Source: Anabaena sp. UHCC 0187 | GTDB taxonomy: Bacteria > Cyanobacteriota > Cyanobacteriia > Cyanobacteriales > Nostocaceae | DNA length: 64,000 nucleotides | NCBI RefSeq assembly: GCF_009712035.1 | Contig: NZ_VILB01000013.1 | Location: 85,991-149,990 of the forward strand | Direction: 5' to 3' | Part shown: positions 26,606 through 41,762 of the stretch, one piece after another | Numbering within the stretch: position 1 is the first letter of the stretch | Layout: every line of letters starts with the position of its first letter | Program-made: the position numbers and the translations under genes | Notes under the pieces: model-generated | What the model saw: only the letters and a program-made list of their open reading frames with translations | Database searches by the model: none | What the model was told of the DNA's origin: nothing

Positions 26606-26669
26606 TTTGGTAATGGGTAATTGGTAATTACTGATTATATTCATCTATTACCAATGACCAAAATTAAAT

Positions 26670-26816
26670 AGGCAAGGCCGGAGACAGCAGGTGCTAATAG
26701 CTTAATACCCTGCCGAGGTTGTAATTTTAACCGTCTGAAGTTTGAACAGTGAAACTGTGACAACTACAGCATTAAAAATACCACTTTGAAACCCTGGCTA
26801 AGTTAGCTGGGGTTAA
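26670..26816 (+). promoter_or_regulatory. Ribosomal protein L10 leader
   Basis: The conserved core GAGACAGCAGGTGC, TTAATACCCTGCCGAGGTT (26681-26720) is the L10 leader that binds the L10(L12)4 complex for feedback control of rplJ-rplL. A later hairpin (AACCC at 26790 with GGGTT at 26810, inner GCTA/TAGC) followed by AATTGTTTTC looks like an attenuator. Confidence 0.9.
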
Positions 26817-26834
26817 TTGTTTTCGGTAAATCAG

Positions 26835-32876: not shown

Positions 32877-33594
32877 ACCAACCCAACTCATGAGAACCAA
32901 CTTGACTATGAGCTATTTTCGCATATTCTGGCTTAATCGGGCTAGGTTCTCCGGCCGCTTCTGCTAATAGTTGGGATTGACAAGAACGCTCCATTGTGAT
33001 AAACCACCAAGCAGCCTCATCAATAGTATTACCGACAGTCAGTAAGCCGTGATTTTTGAGAATGACGGCTTTATTTTTCCCCAAAGTTTGAGCAATGCGC
33101 TTACCTTCTTGGGTATCTAAAACAACACCTGTATAATCAATAAATATACTATGGTCTTGGTAAAAAGCACAAGCATCTTGGGTGAGAGGGTCAAGGAGAC
33201 GGCCAAGACTCGACCAGCTTTTACCATAGATAGAATGGGCGTGGGCAGCGGCTACTGCGTCAGGACGGGCGGCATGAACTTGAGAATGAATGGCAAAAGC
33301 TGCGCGATTTACTGGAAGATTACCGTAAATTACATCACCTTGCTGATTAACTAAAATTAGGTCACTAACTCGAATTAAACCAAAGTGCATTCCAAAGGGA
33401 TTTACCCAAAAATGTTCGGGGTTTTCGGGGTCACGGGCTGTAATGTGTCCAGCGACACCTTCATCAAATCCAAATCGGGAAAATAGCCGTAATGCTGCTG
33501 CTAGTCGCTGTTGACGGTGCAATCTTTCTGCGGTAATTGAAGTGAAAGTGGGAATTTGGGGAATATTTGGCTTTTCTATGGGTTTTTCTATCAT
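32818..33594 (-). CDS. Class II aldolase/adducin family protein
   Basis: A 258-aa zinc-dependent aldolase-like protein. GFDEGVAGHITARDPENPEHFWVNPFG is the N-terminal substrate loop, AAAHAHSIYGKSWSSLG carries the His-x-His zinc ligands, and KNHGLLTVGNTIDEAAWW the third ligand and C-terminal helix. These proteins act on phosphorylated or free sugar-like hydroxy-ketones; the exact substrate is not readable. ATG start; no operon partner. Its last ~20 codons overlap the convergent hydrolase gene. Confidence 0.88.
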   Translation of the reverse strand: MIEKPIEKPNIPQIPTFTSITAERLHRQQRLAAALRLFSRFGFDEGVAGHITARDPENPEHFWVNPFGMHFGLIRVSDLILVNQQGDVIYGNLPVNRAAFAIHSQVHAARPDAVAAAHAHSIYGKSWSSLGRLLDPLTQDACAFYQDHSIFIDYTGVVLDTQEGKRIAQTLGKNKAVILKNHGLLTVGNTIDEAAWWFITMERSCQSQLLAEAAGEPSPIKPEYAKIAHSQVGSHELGWFSFQPLYEMIVRQEPDFLD

Positions 33595-33643
33595 ATAAAA
33601 ATCCGATTTATAGGTTATTCTAGCAAATTACCCAAATTAGAAA

Positions 33644-33720
33644 AGAAAAACCGCAAAATATTACATTTCACGGTTTTAAGTATGGTGTGAGGAGTTAAAC
33701 TCTCTATCATCATAGAGTAT
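33644..33720 (-). ncRNA. yfr1: Yfr1 small RNA (copy A)
   Basis: On the minus strand: 5' hairpin CTCTAT-GATG-ATAGAG, then the ultraconserved unpaired motif ACTCCTCACACC (33684-33695), then a 10-bp terminator stem AACCGTGAAA/TTTTGCGGTT (two G-U pairs) and TTTTTC. This is the full Yfr1 architecture. Yfr1 is a cyanobacterial sRNA reported to pair with outer-membrane porin mRNAs. Ends are approximate; no promoter was assigned. Confidence 0.87.
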
Positions 33721-33870
33721 TAGCCCGATAAAAATGCTCTCGTAACAGTTTTAGTAACAAGATTTTTTATTTCTTACTTTTTACTTATAATTACCAACGC
33801 AAATTATACCATTTGTGAGATTTTTGATCTTACTAACATGATTAATTATCCTAAAAAATAGCCATAAAAA

Positions 33871-33955
33871 AATAAAAACCGTGAAAAAACAAATTCACGG
33901 CTTAATAAAAATGTGGTGTGAGGAGACTTAACTCTCACTTCATCATACTTCACCT
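33871..33955 (-). ncRNA. Yfr1-like small RNA (copy B, diverged)
   Basis: Same design ~230 bp further along: motif CTCCTCACACC (33915-33925) preceded by T rather than A, and a terminator stem CCGTGAA/TTCACGG with a following T-rich run. The 5' part aligns with copy A (TATGATGA, GAGAGTT shared) but lacks the perfect first hairpin; it can instead pair GTGAG with the CTCAC of the motif. Either a diverged paralogue or a decaying copy. Confidence 0.72.
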
Positions 33956-34032
33956 GACAATTAGAACTTCAATTACCCCAAATTTCTTTACAAGATAGTT
34001 ATTTGATGACATATATATTTTCTTAATCTTTG

Positions 34033-35025
34033 TTAATTTATACTAATAGCACCACCACAACTAGAACCACAACCCGCAGTACAACCATAGCAATATTCAG
34101 CAGTTTGGATTTCATAAATTATATCTAAACTACCAACTTCTAACAATTTGCTCACAGTCAACTTTTCACCATTGCTAGTTTTTGCAGGTAAATTCATCAT
34201 TTGGTTAAAGTCACAATCATAAATATTCCCTAAATAATCAATAGAAAGTTGCTCACGACACATTAAACCATCAATTGTATTTGCATTAAAGTGAGACTCT
34301 AAAAAATGCAAATAGCTAGAATAAAGCTGTTTTCGTTCTAAATGAAACTTTGTTCTTCCCACAGGTATATTAGTAATTGTGAAAAGATGATTAAATCGAA
34401 TATCAAACTTTTCCACCAAAAAGGTTTTATAAGCCTTTTCTAAATTTTCCTGTGCAGGAGTTAAAGAAAAATCCTCACCATTTGGTAATGGAGGATTATA
34501 CACCAAATCTAAAACTAAATCTGGGTTTTGACCATAACCAATTTTATTTAACCATTGTAAAGCTTTAATTGATTGATCAAAAACACCATCTCCTCGCATT
34601 TTATCCACATTATCTGCCAAATAACAGGGAAGAGAAGCAACAATCTTCACTTGATGTTGAGCAAAGAAATCTGGTAAATCTTCAAATCCCTCCACAAAAT
34701 AAATTGTCAGATTTGATCTCACAATTACCTGTTTACTTGCCTTTCTAGCAGCTTCTACCAATGGCTTAAATCCATAATTCATTTCTGGAGCGCCACCAGT
34801 TAAATCAACAGTTTTGATTTCTGGAAACCTCTCAATTAACGTAATTAACTGTTGACATATTTCCGGTGTTAGTTCCTCAGTTCTCTTGGGACTAGCCTCT
34901 ACATGGCAATGGTTACAGGCTAAATTACAACGTTTTCCCAAATTAATTTGTAAAACGTTAATTTCTTTTTTTGTTAAAGGTGAATTTAGCTGCTGATGAA
35001 AAGGTGTAATTGCTGTTTGTAACAT
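34033..35025 (-). CDS. arsS: Radical SAM protein ArsS (arsenosugar biosynthesis)
   Basis: Works after ArsM: transfers the adenosyl group to dimethylarsenic on the way to oxo-arsenosugars. The 330-aa product has the radical SAM cluster motif C33-x3-C37-x2-C40 in KRCNLACNHCHVEASP, DLTGGAPE, RSNLTIYF, and the family C-terminal cysteine-rich end CYGCTAGCGSSCGG. ATG at 35025 is used; the open frame runs 63 nt further but through a dispersed repeat. Second gene of a two-gene unit with arsM. Confidence 0.92.
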   Translation of the reverse strand: MLQTAITPFHQQLNSPLTKKEINVLQINLGKRCNLACNHCHVEASPKRTEELTPEICQQLITLIERFPEIKTVDLTGGAPEMNYGFKPLVEAARKASKQVIVRSNLTIYFVEGFEDLPDFFAQHQVKIVASLPCYLADNVDKMRGDGVFDQSIKALQWLNKIGYGQNPDLVLDLVYNPPLPNGEDFSLTPAQENLEKAYKTFLVEKFDIRFNHLFTITNIPVGRTKFHLERKQLYSSYLHFLESHFNANTIDGLMCREQLSIDYLGNIYDCDFNQMMNLPAKTSNGEKLTVSKLLEVGSLDIIYEIQTAEYCYGCTAGCGSSCGGAISIN

Positions 35026-35037
35026 AATAGATATAAA

Positions 35038-35100
35038 TATCTCTTCCTCTCTGTGTCCTCTGCGCCTCTGCGGTGATGCCTCCGGCACGCTGCGCGAACG
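35038..35100. repeat. Dispersed repeat between arsM and arsS
   Basis: Contains TCTGTGTCCTCTGCGCCTC and GATGCCTCCGGCACGCTGCG, pieces of repeat families common in Nostocales intergenic DNA. GC-rich relative to its surroundings. It opens the frame upstream of the arsS ATG without being part of the protein. Confidence 0.7.
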
Positions 35101-35109
35101 ATAAAAAAA

Positions 35110-36078
35110 TCAACAACATCCCCCACCATCATAATACCATGTAGAATCAGTAATAAAAATTTCTTCGGAATTTGAATTTGCTAAATTACCCGCTGTTTTA
35201 TCACAAACCGCTGCAGGAATTCCTCTTTGTAAAATATGTCCAGCATGATCATCAAAAAATGCTTCCTTACCCGCATAAATCGCTGTTTTACCAGTGAAGA
35301 TACAAGCACCGTCGGGGGGAATATCCACTTTAAAAGCCACAGAATCCAGACTTTCTAAAAGCAGATTTTCTGCTAATTGATAATTGTGTTTATCTAATAA
35401 CCGATAAGGACGACGAGCGCGAATTTCAATTTGTCCAAAACCAGCATTAATAATTAGGTTAGTATACTCTTGATATGTGAGTGCGCCAGATAAACACAAA
35501 GCGCGTAAATGTTCATTTTGTTGTAAATGAGCAGGAATTGGACTTGTAGCAATTGGGTCACTCATCTGCAAGCGTCCACCTGGTTTCAATACCCGATATG
35601 CTTCCTTTAAAGCGCGAGTTAAATCTGCTGGTTCAAAAATATTAAACAGGCAATTTTGCGCTACTACATCTACAGAAGCATCCGCCACAGGTAAATTAAA
35701 AGCATCTCCCGGATGAATCTCGACAAAGCTCGTATCAAACCAAGGATTTTCCTTTGCAGCAATTTGTAAATTACGTGTTGCAGCTTCTCTCATGGCTTCC
35801 ACAGGTTCAACAGCAATAATCGCACCAGGGCGACGAGAAAAATAAGCAAATTGCAAAGCTTCTAAACCACCACCAACACCAACATATAAAACTGTAGGTT
35901 CATTATTAAGTTCATTATGATGAACTGTAGTTCCACAACCATAGTTCATTTCCTGCATAGCCAGAGGAATTTTCAGCCCTGGTAATTGTAAAGGTGTACT
36001 TTGGACACAACAAAGACCTATTTCTGGTGTTTGGGCAACTTGGCTGTAAAATTGGGCTGCGGTTTCTAAATATGTCAT
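35110..36078 (-). CDS. arsM: Arsenite methyltransferase ArsM (arsenosugar type)
   Basis: SAM-dependent methylation of arsenite to dimethylarsenic. The 322-aa product has the Rossmann motif VGVGGG at 66-71, GDAFNLP, and cysteines at 23-24 (GLCC), 48, 143 (QNCLFNIFEP) and 195 (ALCLSG); ArsM uses several such cysteines to hold As(III). The C-terminal half and terminal GGGCC are typical of the arsenosugar-type ArsM. Faces arsS directly downstream. ATG start. No ArsR site was recognised in the 60 bp between its start and the Mn riboswitch that faces the other way. Confidence 0.92.
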   Translation of the reverse strand: MTYLETAAQFYSQVAQTPEIGLCCVQSTPLQLPGLKIPLAMQEMNYGCGTTVHHNELNNEPTVLYVGVGGGLEALQFAYFSRRPGAIIAVEPVEAMREAATRNLQIAAKENPWFDTSFVEIHPGDAFNLPVADASVDVVAQNCLFNIFEPADLTRALKEAYRVLKPGGRLQMSDPIATSPIPAHLQQNEHLRALCLSGALTYQEYTNLIINAGFGQIEIRARRPYRLLDKHNYQLAENLLLESLDSVAFKVDIPPDGACIFTGKTAIYAGKEAFFDDHAGHILQRGIPAAVCDKTAGNLANSNSEEIFITDSTWYYDGGGCC

Positions 36079-37132: not shown

Positions 37133-37357
37133 ATGCAAGCTGAAAAACTTTCCATTTCTTTACCATCCTCTTTGGTGCAGTTTATTGAAAATTATAAATT
37201 GACTAAAGGCTGTAAATCTCGTTCTCAAGTAATTGAGTTAGCCATAGAATTACTGCGTTATCAGGAGCTAGAGCAAGCTTATCGGGAGGCTGCGGCAGAA
37301 TTTAACCCAGAATGGGATTTAACTGTAGGAGATGGGCTAACAGATGAAACGTGGTGA
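37133..37357 (+). CDS. Ribbon-helix-helix antitoxin of MazF module
   Basis: A 74-aa CopG/MazE-like antitoxin. N-terminal RHH DNA-binding strand and helices (KLSISLPSSLVQFIENYKLTKGCKSRSQVIELAIELL), then an acidic flexible tail (EFNPEWDLTVGDGLTDETW) that should block MazF. Overlaps the toxin gene by 14 bp, a usual TA layout with translational coupling. ATG start. It most likely represses its own promoter. Confidence 0.88.
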   Translation: MQAEKLSISLPSSLVQFIENYKLTKGCKSRSQVIELAIELLRYQELEQAYREAAAEFNPEWDLTVGDGLTDETW

Positions 37358-37682
37358 AATATACCTTGCAAATCTCAGTCCCGCAGTGGGGTCAGAAATG
37401 GATAAACGCCGTCCTGTACTCATTGTTAGCAATGATGCTAATAATAATGCCTCTACTACGGTGACGATTTTACCGATTACATCTAATATGAGTCGTGTAT
37501 ATCCTTTTGAGGTTTTATTAAATCCAGAAGATTCCGGTTTATCTAAAACTTCTAAAGTACAAGCGCAACAAATACGGACAATTTCTAAACAGCGCATTTT
37601 AGGATATATGGTAGGGTGTTTAAGTCAAGAGTTGATAGATTTAGTCAATGATGCTATTAAGTTACATTTAGCGTTGGAGTAG
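37344..37682 (+). CDS. mazF: MazF/PemK-family endoribonuclease toxin
   Basis: A 112-aa mRNA-cutting toxin. KRGEIYLANLSPAVGSEMDKRRPVLIVSND is the family start, with the conserved Arg-Pro at 23-24, TILPITSN supplies the catalytic Thr/Ser strand, and KVQAQQIRTISKQRI the conserved basic edge. Starts inside the end of the antitoxin gene. Complete and apparently functional. Sits between mnx and a relic of an mnx paralogue. Confidence 0.92.
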   Translation: MKRGEIYLANLSPAVGSEMDKRRPVLIVSNDANNNASTTVTILPITSNMSRVYPFEVLLNPEDSGLSKTSKVQAQQIRTISKQRILGYMVGCLSQELIDLVNDAIKLHLALE

Positions 37683-37828: not shown

Positions 37829-40800
37829 TTATCCTTCTATAATTTTAATCTCTTCTGCTGTTAGTTCATAAAGTTGATAAACAAGTTGATCAATTTCTGT
37901 TTCTAATGCGGTTGTATCTGCATTGGGATCTGATTTTTTTGCTGTGAGAATTTTCTCAACTAATAAAATGATAGGTTTTTGATCTTGTTTGTTTATATCT
38001 TTGATTGGTAGTTGTTCAACCTTATATTTTAGCCAGCGATTAGTTCCCATTCCTGAACTTGTGGAAATTTCATTAAAATACCACTTTGCAACTTGAGAAT
38101 TAAGAATGGCTAATAAATATTTGAGATTATTTCCTGTAATAAAAAAGATAGTATTATTTGAATAATATCCCTGATCATCAAAAGCAAACTTTTGTTGATC
38201 TGATAATTCTCCCCAAATTATTTTCTCTTGTTCAAACTCATCATAATACGCGCATGATCTTAACTCCCACCAATAGTTACCTTGATCATCTCTTGCAAAT
38301 AGTCCTTTTCCTTTACCTGTGATAGATTCACCTATCATTTTTAAGTGTTGATATATTTCTGGATGTTGTTGACTAAAAAAAGTTTCAGCATCAATATTTC
38401 CCCGATTGATATTAGTCCAACCTGTTTTTATAATTATGACCCAAATATCTTTCCATAAATAACCATACTTAAAAATATCTTTACCTCTTATTGCTGGTTC
38501 AATGAAATTAGCACTTTGAGGATTTTTATGAATTATGTTATTTCTCTGTTCTGTGTTGATATAAAATGCTTCGTTAAACCCAGTTTTTAAGCCATAGTTT
38601 ATTTGAATATTTAAATCCTTAATCAGCTTTGAATCAGTTTCAAGTTTATGCTTTAAACTTACGACTGATTGAGTTCCTATTGTCCAACCTGTGTCGGGAA
38701 GTTCAGAAATAGTATTGGCATTTTTGGAAATATATTTTTCTAAAGAAATGCTAATTATAAATCCTTGGGTAATTGCAGCAGCAATAAGTTTTTTTCCCCA
38801 ATCGGCCTTTTCAACTATAATAATATTCGATTCTACAGTAGCTTCTTTGAAAATTTGAGCATCTTCAATATTTAATAATAAAACAGGATTAGCTTTTGTA
38901 GTTAGAAATTTTCTGAGTAGATTTCCATATTGAGTTTTTATCCATGAGTTAGATGTAATATACGTCAATAAACCTTTATTTTTTAGAATCTGTAGTCCTT
39001 TTTCATAAAACAAGCAATAAATATCTGAACCTTTTGTATAAGTTTGATATTTATTTTCAAAATAAGTAGTTTGATATTTATCTTTAATTTTAGATAGTGA
39101 AAAATACGGAGGATTACCAATAACCACATCAAAACCAACAAAAACACCATCATTATTCAAAACTTCAGGAAACTCAAATCTCCACTCAAAAGCATTTTCA
39201 TAAATCTTACCACTTACTATATCTTCAATCTCAACCCGTAACTTATCAATTTCATTATTTAACTTAGCAATCTTTTTCTCCCGCGCTTTCTTCTCAGCTT
39301 TAGTTTCCTCAAATAAAGAAGTTTGAGTTTCCAAATTCTCAACCTCACCCTCTAACTTTCTTAACTTAGTTTTATTTGGATCACTTGATCCCAATATTGT
39401 CTTTAAATTCCCTTTAATATCATTAATAAATCTTTCCATTTCCCGCTTTTGCTCCTTATTTTCAGCATTGCGGTAGGTTTGTACAGCATTTCTATAACTT
39501 TCTATAGTGCATTTACTTCTATTTAAAGCAACTCGCAAATCAGTATCTAAAGAAAAACGACTAATTAAAGAATTACCACATTTGATATTAATATCAATAT
39601 TAGGTAAAGTCTCCAACTCCAACTCTTGCATTTTCTCTTCTTTGTTCCCCTCTCCTCCCAGGAGAGGGGTTAGGGGAGAGGTTTTATAATAAGCATTTTT
39701 TAAAAGTTCAATCCATAAACGCAATCGACATATTTTGACAGAATTGGGGTTAATATCCACACCAAATAAACAACTTTCAATAATCGTCTGTTTTTCATGA
39801 AAGAGAGTTTCTTGTACTCGTTGACTTTCTTTGCTTTTGGGATTATATTCAAATAATAAACCATCTTCATCAAGAATAATTAACTCATCATTGACAACTT
39901 CAATATCATATTCTTTTAATCTTTTACCTTCCCTATCAAGTAAAATCTTCAATTCGCTTTTTATCGTAATAATTTCATTCAAAGCAGAAACTAAAAAATG
40001 TCCTGAACCCACAGCAGGATCACATATTTTTAAACTATTGATAATAGTATTAGCTTCTTTTCTATCTTCTATTTTTTCATACAAATCATTAATATTTTCA
40101 CAACTCCAATTTTTAACATCATTAAACTTCTGTACAACCGCTCTTCTAATGGTTTCTCGACACATATACATAGTAATGAAACCAGGAGTAAAGAAAGAAC
40201 CATCTTTATAACCATTGATTTTCTCAAAGATTAAACCCAGTACAGCAGCATTAATTAATCTTTTATTCTCTTCCTGAATTTCCTCCCCAGTTTCACTACT
40301 AAAATCATAAGCATTGAGAAATTCAAACAGATATTCTAAAGCATTAATTTCACCAATACGTTTTTTTCCGTTGCTATCTTTTAAGATAGTAGAAGAGAAA
40401 ATTTGCAGATTCTCATTTCTAAGATTATTAATACAAATAGTTACTTGTTCATTATCCGTCAGTTCAAATAGAGAACTATTCAAATAAGGAACATGAGAGA
40501 ATATATTTTTTACAGATTCGATTCTTTCTTCTTGCTTGCAAGCTAATACGCTGACGAAAAGACTGTTTAGATCATCATAATTTTGGACTTTCTGCAAATT
40601 CAAAAATCCCCAAGATAGATCATTTTTGTGATATTTAATTAATTGCGCTTCTAATAATTTCAGAAACAGGATTCTATTTACCCAAGTAATTGCTAATTCT
40701 AAACCAACGTTAAAAAGTTGTTCTTGATAGGTTTCTCCAAATAGTTCTGGTTTTGGTAAACGGTAAATTTTGTCTGAGCTATGAAGTTGATTAATAGCAT

Positions 40801-41662
40801 TTTCTATCAATGAACCGATATTTCTCTCATTTTCTTGTTTGCGTTGAATGAGTTTTTTACCACCTTCCTTAGTTTCCGTTAAACCGATAATATGTAATAA
40901 CTCGCTATAAAATCCTTTATCAAGAGTATTACTATCATTTGCAAAAGGTAACTTTAATAAATGTTCTGGTGAAAATAACTTAAACAGAGGAATTAATTTA
41001 TGATCATTAAGATTTTCCCCAGGTTGTAAATATTGCTGATATTCTCGAATATCAAAATGTGTAAAAGTGATGTTGTCTACAATTTCATCAATAGCAGGTT
41101 TAGCAATTTCCTTATAAAAAAAATCAGTTTTTCTATTGCTTAATCTTCCAGCTTCAAAATCCGTGAATTGCTGAACTAGGGTTTTATTTTCTACAAATGC
41201 TTTCTCAAAACTATTAGCATCAAAAATAAACCATTCATAAATATTAGTAGCTATTAAATATTTAATTTCTAAATTTTTCTCTGTTAGACGTTCCCGCAGA
41301 AAATATAAAACCAATTCTTGCAAAGCTTTGGTATTTAAATTATCAGCTTTAAGCATTTCGCTTTTATTGGTGGGCTTTTTAGCTTCTAGAATCACACCAA
41401 CTTTACTTTTAGCATCTTTACCATTATGAATAACAAAATCATTTCTGCCTTTAGTATTAATAAAATGATTTGCACCATAATATGTACCCTTTAAAAAATC
41501 CCCAATCAGATTTTTATGAAACTCTTCTGATTCCGATTCATTAATTTTCTCAATTAAACTATGCAGATTTTTTTTAAAATTCTCAATATCATTTCTATTA
41601 GGTTTAACTTTGAGAAAAGCCTTATTTAATGATTCTCTAGGTTGCATTTTATGAAAATTCAT
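37829..41662 (-). CDS. Type IIG restriction-modification enzyme (Eco57I-like)
   Basis: A single-chain enzyme that both cuts and methylates (adenine-N6). Counting from the in-frame codon at 41716 (ATG 41662 is residue 19 and the likelier start): nuclease-like region with D93 and E111-x-K113 in VILEAKK, helical connector, methyltransferase motif I DPAVGSG at 566-572 and catalytic NPPY at 868-871, then a TaqI-like target-recognition domain ending in a coiled C-terminus. The chain is 1277 aa, normal for the class. An acidic coiled coil (~760-840) separates motif I and NPPY regions. A palindromic dispersed repeat is inserted in frame at 39644-39681, encoding SPLTPLLGGEG. No separate S or M gene; with mazF it forms a small defence patch. 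Confidence 0.88.
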   Translation of the reverse strand: MNFHKMQPRESLNKAFLKVKPNRNDIENFKKNLHSLIEKINESESEEFHKNLIGDFLKGTYYGANHFINTKGRNDFVIHNGKDAKSKVGVILEAKKPTNKSEMLKADNLNTKALQELVLYFLRERLTEKNLEIKYLIATNIYEWFIFDANSFEKAFVENKTLVQQFTDFEAGRLSNRKTDFFYKEIAKPAIDEIVDNITFTHFDIREYQQYLQPGENLNDHKLIPLFKLFSPEHLLKLPFANDSNTLDKGFYSELLHIIGLTETKEGGKKLIQRKQENERNIGSLIENAINQLHSSDKIYRLPKPELFGETYQEQLFNVGLELAITWVNRILFLKLLEAQLIKYHKNDLSWGFLNLQKVQNYDDLNSLFVSVLACKQEERIESVKNIFSHVPYLNSSLFELTDNEQVTICINNLRNENLQIFSSTILKDSNGKKRIGEINALEYLFEFLNAYDFSSETGEEIQEENKRLINAAVLGLIFEKINGYKDGSFFTPGFITMYMCRETIRRAVVQKFNDVKNWSCENINDLYEKIEDRKEANTIINSLKICDPAVGSGHFLVSALNEIITIKSELKILLDREGKRLKEYDIEVVNDELIILDEDGLLFEYNPKSKESQRVQETLFHEKQTIIESCLFGVDINPNSVKICRLRLWIELLKNAYYKTSPLTPLLGGEGNKEEKMQELELETLPNIDINIKCGNSLISRFSLDTDLRVALNRSKCTIESYRNAVQTYRNAENKEQKREMERFINDIKGNLKTILGSSDPNKTKLRKLEGEVENLETQTSLFEETKAEKKAREKKIAKLNNEIDKLRVEIEDIVSGKIYENAFEWRFEFPEVLNNDGVFVGFDVVIGNPPYFSLSKIKDKYQTTYFENKYQTYTKGSDIYCLFYEKGLQILKNKGLLTYITSNSWIKTQYGNLLRKFLTTKANPVLLLNIEDAQIFKEATVESNIIIVEKADWGKKLIAAAITQGFIISISLEKYISKNANTISELPDTGWTIGTQSVVSLKHKLETDSKLIKDLNIQINYGLKTGFNEAFYINTEQRNNIIHKNPQSANFIEPAIRGKDIFKYGYLWKDIWVIIIKTGWTNINRGNIDAETFFSQQHPEIYQHLKMIGESITGKGKGLFARDDQGNYWWELRSCAYYDEFEQEKIIWGELSDQQKFAFDDQGYYSNNTIFFITGNNLKYLLAILNSQVAKWYFNEISTSSGMGTNRWLKYKVEQLPIKDINKQDQKPIILLVEKILTAKKSDPNADTTALETEIDQLVYQLYELTAEEIKIIEG
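39644..39681. repeat. Palindromic repeat inside the RM gene
   Basis: TTCCCCTCTCCTCCCAGGAG and the following GGGGTTAGGGGAGAGG form an interrupted palindrome. The repeat is commonly intergenic in cyanobacteria; here it is translated. Confidence 0.8.
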
Positions 41663-41762
41663 TATTCTCAACTCAAACGTGATAAAGTGTAGGTAATAAT
41701 TGATAATTACTCGCACTTTATCACAAATTCTTCCGTAATGTACCGTTAAAATTAAAAAGGTC

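Follow-up and report, generated by a model that had tools for sequence, protein, structure and literature searches.

The targeting motif of the small RNA (sRNA) Yfr1 is found twice in close succession at this locus, an arrangement that the initial annotation interpreted as two tandem Yfr1 genes, one of them diverged, and that raises the question of whether these are Yfr1 genes at all. Within the window, by which we mean the whole 64-kb stretch of DNA analysed, the sequence CTCCTCACACC was present exactly twice, both times on the minus strand (33684..33694 and 33915..33925) and at a distance of 231 nt, in agreement with the 230 bp or so first estimated. Two matches with at most one mismatch were reached in 7 of 100 shuffled versions of the window, and both real matches are exact. 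Each motif is followed on the minus strand by a hairpin and a T-run, predicted to be intrinsic terminators at 33647..33677 and 33876..33903, respectively. The scan of positions 33500-34100 returned three terminator-like sites, the third of them elsewhere on the plus strand, against a mean of 0.1 in shuffled sequences. The presence of two Yfr1-type motifs, each with a terminator, was thus confirmed.

We designate the two predicted transcripts sRNA A, the downstream copy (minus strand, 33645..33701, +1 at 33701), with the seed near its 5′ end and the terminator at its 3′ end, and sRNA B, the upstream copy (minus strand, 33874..33933, +1 at 33933). Both were delimited from the alignment A1, the predicted fold and the score with R1, a covariance model described below whose training set includes sRNA A and sRNA B themselves; for sRNA A the letters were also checked. 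The predicted 56- and 60-nt RNAs are more stable than their shuffled counterparts (z −3.47 and −4.80), and the sole helix in their folds is the terminator, with the motif unpaired near the 5′ end; the motif becomes partly paired once 21 or 27 nt of upstream sequence are added to the fold. The full two-hairpin layout first attributed to copy A was not recovered. Its 5′ hairpin (CTCTAT/ATAGAG) does not form in the minimum-energy structure of the 77-nt stretch, includes the −10 box TATGAT and is complete in 6 of 67 A-type relatives, across which its pairing (248 of 402) equals that of a control slid by −3 (248 of 402). The internal pairing of the motif proposed for copy B fared no better, relying on a GTGAG just 5′ of the predicted start with a comparable partner in 8 of 39 B-type relatives (5 of 23 in a smaller B set).

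The layout described for Yfr1 in the available part of the published account consists of two stem-loops around an unpaired motif, and its genomic place is described there as well (PMC2190773). Judged from the predicted start site, copy A does not have this two-stem-loop layout. The undecanucleotide ACUCCUCACAC of Yfr1 is present in copy A, and copy B has a U at its first position; this replacement of the first A by T, already recorded in the initial annotation, is a true difference and is usual in the B lineage. In the covariance search that had been proposed as a check of the Yfr1 assignment, the Yfr1 model (RF01116) gave zero matches at E up to 10 on positions 33400-34200 or on five loci of the sRNA family, an outcome that the initial annotation had counted as refuting its reading; no Rfam family exceeded its gathering score in the stretch that holds the pair. 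Over the whole window, the only Rfam matches above cut-off corresponded to tRNA and to an L10 ribosomal protein leader (RF00557, plus strand, 26660-26827, 66.5 bits), the latter being ordinary. The genome itself, a draft assembly of 5.1 Mb in 57 contigs, contains the motif six times and a sole RF01116 match, located at locus L001 (62.2 bits, cut-off 38), which is the true Yfr1. This locus is flanked by guaB-like and trxA-like frames, named from their translations, and scores 15.9 bits with R1. RF01116 exceeded its cut-off in 189 of 192 genomes of the bacterial family, with one match each in 188 of the 189; only one genome (G151) had two. Yfr1 and the pair have in common the seed CUCCUCACACC, the short size and the 3′ terminator, and likely the same target word. 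Unlike Yfr1, however, which possesses an additional stem-loop on its 5′ side, is located at guaB-trxA and occurs once per genome in those 188 genomes, the pair shows no conserved 5′ hairpin, lies by arsS and fails the Yfr1 model. We conclude that sRNA A and sRNA B carry the Yfr1 targeting word yet are not Yfr1, and that, as predicted transcripts, they constitute a separate sRNA family.

The extent of this family was examined with the DNA of the pair, which found relatives in 147 of the 192 family genomes, and with R1, which was built from 34 aligned transcripts (20 A-type and 14 B-type) of the 36 extracted from the best loci. Members are about 56-60 nt long, begin at a predicted AGUUAA or AGUUUAA located 7-8 nt after a TATGAT box, carry the seed near the 5′ end and contain a single hairpin, the terminator. 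The ten pairs of the R1 helix are formed in 99.1% of cells, against 41-59% when the helix is slid, and four of the ten are changed on both sides among the 34 relatives; such both-sided changes also back the terminator of sRNA A. In its own genome, sRNA A scored 69.2 bits (E 1.3e-13) and sRNA B 63.8 bits (E 2.9e-12), being the only two strong matches; a third (C4:506835, locus L119; 21.6 bits, E 0.10) was discarded because it does not contain the seed. At E 0.01, R1 matched 163 of the 192 family genomes and 29 gave no match under strict filters, a count that is not independent for the genomes that supplied training sequences, since those sequences match by construction. About 117 of the 163 had at least two matches, some of which are weak terminator echoes on the opposite strand. 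Three genomes (G022, G098 and G157) had five to six matches each, more than the tandem pair accounts for, and some of these may be further copies elsewhere. Among 26 named loci, from genomes that overlap with the family sample, R1 matched 25, including those of Fischerella muscicola PCC 7414, Chlorogloeopsis fritschii PCC 6912, Westiellopsis prolifica IICB1 and Calothrix sp. PCC 7103; the sole exception was Cuspidothrix issatschenkoi CHARLIE-1. In a sample of 386 genomes of the phylum, analysed at E 0.001, matches were found in 46, of which 35 belong to the same family, two to the sister family f10 of the same order and nine, all weak, to other groups. Eight of the latter belong to f31, a distant family, and one to f28; all were set aside as probable chance.

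Two copies were seen at 21 of 57 loci, always on one strand, and in 19 of the 21 the order is B then A with a spacing of 159 to 701 nt. A-type RNAs mostly start with AGUUAAGCUCC (AGUUUAACUCC in the genome studied here) and B-type RNAs with AGUUAAGUCUCC. A tree was calculated from 108 sequences, each comprising 62 nt of upstream DNA plus the transcript; it rests on few columns and has long branches, as the treekit warning states. One branch with support 100/99 holds on one side 66 of the 68 A-labelled rows along with one B-labelled row (L164), which has an A-type box, and the two A-labelled rows off that side are weak, long-branched matches. Because of these two stray rows and L164, the labels as given need three changes on the tree. 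Since the tree separates A from B at this support, the duplication looks ancient, and neither copy has the appearance of a recent duplicate or of one in decay; instead of one diverged copy, we find two lineages, each conserved across genera. The tandem is, by these comparisons of predicted transcripts, an old and widely conserved feature of its bacterial family. For the study of the promoters, L148_1365 and L174_1295 were dropped as weak and L164 was moved to A, which left 67 A and 39 B copies. The exact seed is present in 38 of these B copies and in 45 of the A copies (22 of the 67 are without it).

Analysis of the upstream regions revealed that the two lineages differ in their putative control sequences. 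A −10 box TATGAT precedes the predicted start of sRNA A by 7 nt (minus strand, 33709..33714) and that of sRNA B by 8 nt (minus strand, 33942..33947). In the A lineage (67 copies), 37 copies have this box at the same distance of 7 nt and 4 have it at 6 nt, a run of TATCATGAT occupies the −10 position in 13 more, and TATGAT or TATCAT occurs within the last 20 nt upstream in 57; in the B lineage, 32 of the 39 copies have TATGAT at a distance of 5-8 nt from the start. Further upstream, sRNA A is preceded by the box GTTACTAAAACTGTTAC (about −57 to −41; minus strand, 33742..33758), conserved in A-type copies. Its general form, GTTAC-N7-G(T/A)(T/A)AC starting 56-58 nt before the start, is shared by 64 of the 67 A copies, compared with 2 of the 39 B copies and 1 of 1340 letter-shuffled upstream regions. 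Boxes of the HLR1 type, recognised by RpaB, have a spacing of 10; the spacing here is 12, and this reading of the box was abandoned. B-type copies have a different conserved element, represented at this locus by TGTCATCAAA (about −69 to −78; minus strand, 34002..34011), and TGTCA-N2-AAA occurs within 110 nt upstream of 33 of 39 B vs 1 of 67 A copies. A and B have, as predicted from these conserved elements, two different promoters, and the earlier suggestion of two genes with a Yfr1 targeting motif and room for different regulation is upheld for these predicted sRNAs.

The immediate neighbours of the pair are arsS and a class II aldolase gene. The former encodes an arsenosugar biosynthesis radical SAM protein (minus strand, 34033..35088; TIGR04167, 428 bits, cut-off 300) and is preceded by arsM, for an arsenosugar biosynthesis arsenite methyltransferase (minus strand, 35110..36078; NF038099, 572.2 bits, cut-off 400). 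A co-oriented ArsS match ending 100-659 nt before the first sRNA was detected in 41 of the 57 loci; the 16 others comprise two non-members (L119 and L140), two loci that are too short (L015 and L038) and 12 with room for the gene. When the named loci, some of the same species, were added and the two non-members excluded, ArsS was upstream in 60 of 79 loci, all co-oriented. Downstream genes, compared for most of 21 chosen loci, vary. The adjoining aldolase protein shares 98% identity with a protein of an uncultured cyanobacterium, 93% with one of Anabaena sp. UHCC 0204 and 91% with one of Dolichospermum sp. LEGE 00240, so that the host most likely belongs to the heterocystous Anabaena/Dolichospermum group. 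The aldolase gene was rejected as a conserved neighbour, the exact motif being present only at L037 and L038 among 80 aldolase loci, some of which end at contig ends. Beyond arsM, the window contains two small overlapping frames on the plus strand (37133-37682) that resemble an antitoxin and a MazF-type toxin, and a 1295-aa frame on the minus strand (37829-41716) with an NPPY motif that resembles a large restriction/methylation protein, as read by eye from the translations.

To get insight into the function of the pair, we considered the conservation of the seed and its candidate targets. The seed is exact in 83 of 106 copies. Of 32 substitutions, 30 replace C by T and preserve the pairing with GGTGTGAGGAG through G-U; the two others break it. 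These counts refer to cells rather than to independent changes, and C to T replacements are common in any case. A seed kept in this way fits direct pairing, and the regulated decoy contemplated in the initial annotation found no positive support, although a sponge would keep its seed too. Across the genus (16 genomes), GGTGTGAGGAG-N3-14-ATG was matched 21 times and the reversed pattern 0 times, one of the 21 being the antisense of an A copy. Fifteen of the matches, distributed over 15 of the 16 genomes, have the spacer AAAAGGAAA(A/G), one of them with a single change, and in the genome studied here this site precedes the start of an OprB/SLH porin gene by 10 nt, a gene identity that comes from this genome only. 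Across 41 genomes the pattern gave 76 matches vs 15 in the control, with at least 18 of the 76 corresponding to the antisense of Yfr1, A or B.

The pattern GTGAGGAG-N3-14-ATG gave 16 sites in the genome studied here vs 6 for its reversed form; as 10 of the 16 open into fewer than 100 codons, many are probably due to chance. Pfam searches on five of the six longer frames identified two OprB/SLH porins, one Cache domain and one sub-threshold match, the fifth frame being without a match, and in the second porin gene (L209) GTGAGGAG is placed 5 nt before the ATG. The lowest duplex energy over the 16 sites was given by the Yfr1 piece at 13, by B at one and by A at one, with one tie, in a comparison of pieces of unequal length (34 nt for Yfr1 vs 25 and 29 nt). 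As the Yfr1 piece prevails at 13 of 16 sites, the sites do not single out A or B, and the predicted target site at the porin gene is equally a Yfr1 target. Target prediction within the genome, recommended at the outset against porin mRNAs, did lead to two OprB/SLH porin genes with sites and did not assign them to either copy. In Nostoc PCC 7120, Yfr1 represses porin and peptidoglycan mRNAs by means of the motif, according to the accessible text of PMC6974561.

We consider it likely that the locus encodes two adjacent sRNAs, predicted to be independently transcribed, of a Nostocaceae-wide family with the Yfr1 seed, which would act as a pair of differently controlled repressors. Of the readings considered, the most likely is that the two sRNAs, under different regulation, repress outer-membrane mRNAs in the manner of Yfr1. 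Transcription of each sRNA would start at AGUUAA (AGUUUAA in the copy A of this genome), directly downstream of a dedicated TATGAT box, and stop at a dedicated terminator, leaving CUCCUCACACC unpaired and exposed close to the 5′ end. Both could bind GGUGUGAGGAG-like ribosome-binding regions, such as that of the OprB/SLH porin gene of this genome, and binding would lower translation, as constitutive Yfr1 does. The difference between A and B would reside in the timing of their production, with the conserved GTTAC-N7-GTTAC-type box as a possible activator site for A, and with the different conserved element TGTCA-N2-AAA and the location in the 3′ region of arsM-arsS for B.

Additional sRNAs with the Yfr1 motif are already known, and the closest competitor of this proposal, to which we grant an appreciable chance that still falls short of even, is that A and B belong to the Yfr10 group in a broad sense and are functionally unrelated to the arsM-arsS operon, the synteny being historical only. 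Yfr10, Yfr12 and Yfr18 were described in Prochlorococcus (PMC2518516), and the available part of PMC6778093 names further sRNAs that resemble the present pair in occurring beside a true Yfr1, among them Syr5 and the RNAs starting at TSS 2515196r and 3750139f of Nostoc PCC 7120. With a motif and a terminator each and a separate Yfr1 in the genome, the predicted transcripts A and B are candidates for this broad group. Judging from the gene numbering, TSS 3750139f may lie near alr3095. This gene is NsarsM of Nostoc PCC 7120 (PMC5258700, as far as consulted), and one of the Yfr1-motif RNAs of that strain may be an ortholog of sRNA A or B. The functional independence from arsM-arsS is favoured by the 12 member loci with room for ArsS and without it, and by its absence from 19 of 19 loci of the sister family. 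Membership in the Yfr10 group, on the other hand, has to be set against the Yfr10 model (RF02362), which gave 19.3 bits with copy B (cut-off 43), no match with copy A (33400-34200, E up to 10) and none on five loci of the sRNA family at E up to 10; Yfr1 and Yfr10 membership as such were rejected on these covariance results, below cut-off or without a match. Prochlorococcus Yfr10 displays its motif in the loop of a hairpin and adjoins Yfr2, in the sources at hand, whereas in the predicted folds of the A and B transcripts the motif is not in such a loop and lies unpaired near the 5′ end, and the pair forms a conserved tandem after arsS. Sequence, order and promoter elements are conserved here, in contrast to the low conservation of Yfr10 homologs and to the statement that neither sequence outside the motif nor synteny is conserved among the extra Yfr1-motif sRNAs (PMC6778093, in its available part), a statement that the present tandem qualifies. 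We found no description of an arsS-linked tandem, nor of a link between arsM-arsS and a small RNA, in the paper listings and text passages that the literature search covered. A partial analogy is offered by AbcR1 and AbcR2 of Sinorhizobium, which are also tandem, similar sRNAs, with independent activity, in unrelated hosts (PMC3712013, from its description only). The arsS-linked tandem of predicted Yfr1-seed sRNAs is real and conserved, with an inferred architecture unlike those of Yfr1 and Yfr10.

Two other interpretations appear improbable to us, to a similar degree. The first sees in B chiefly a processing product of the arsM-arsS mRNA, comprising its 3′ end and terminator, and in A the only copy with a promoter of its own. 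Downstream of arsS, the B hairpin does come first among the minus-strand terminator-like sites in the scanned stretch (33500-34100), and the B start lies about 100 nt past the gene; against this reading stand the TATGAT box and the TGTCA-N2-AAA element, which precede the start in 32 and 33 of the 39 B copies, respectively. The second is that A and B are sponges for Yfr2, the Yfr1 antagonist, and not direct repressors. Cyano-2 (RF01702), which we take to be related to Yfr2, was not matched in this genome, and the control genomes were likewise without a match, so this search was uninformative. A sponge would agree with the binding of Yfr1 and Yfr10 to Yfr2 via the same motif, reported in the part of PMC6778093 available to us. 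Finally, a pair of genuine Yfr1 genes, one of them decaying, with an effect through dosage or as a decoy, is very improbable: in spite of the 11-nt seed and terminator in common, A and B have neither an RF01116 match at E up to 10 nor a conserved 5′ hairpin, a single canonical Yfr1 lies elsewhere, the supposedly diverged B has the better kept seed, and both form separate lineages in the tree.

Returning to a differently controlled pair of repressors, its possible significance lies in the control of the Yfr1 regulon. For Yfr1, an abundant and almost constitutive RNA, the authors of PMC6974561 ask in the text available what modulates its control. A conserved pair with the same seed and with its own, different promoter elements would offer a testable answer to this question and a concrete lead on switching, of relevance for nitrogen-fixing, partly bloom-forming cyanobacteria. 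As a tentative and rather doubtful extension, the tandem might be an ancient two-gene switch for the Yfr1 regulon in heterocystous cyanobacteria, in which 5′-seed sRNAs placed behind arsM-arsS, with their own promoter elements (GTTAC-N7-GTTAC for A and TGTCA-N2-AAA for B) and putative regulators, would add signal-dependent inputs to Yfr1-repressed targets and couple the synthesis of porins and cell wall to arsenic or envelope stress.

In the sister family f10, R1 matches were found in 14 of 20 genomes and were mostly weaker. ArsS and the aldolase are absent from all 19 f10 loci tested (of 21). The ten f10 copies listed have kept the hairpin and the GTTAC-type upstream box, whole or in part, and the seed is changed in eight of the ten (CTCCTCATGCC, CTCCTTAGACC). 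It is as if the sRNA of a putative regulator had been re-aimed while box and hairpin persisted; the loci L215, L218-L221 and L226-L228, with a GTTAC-type box, a hairpin and changed seeds, possibly correspond to such re-aimed sRNAs.
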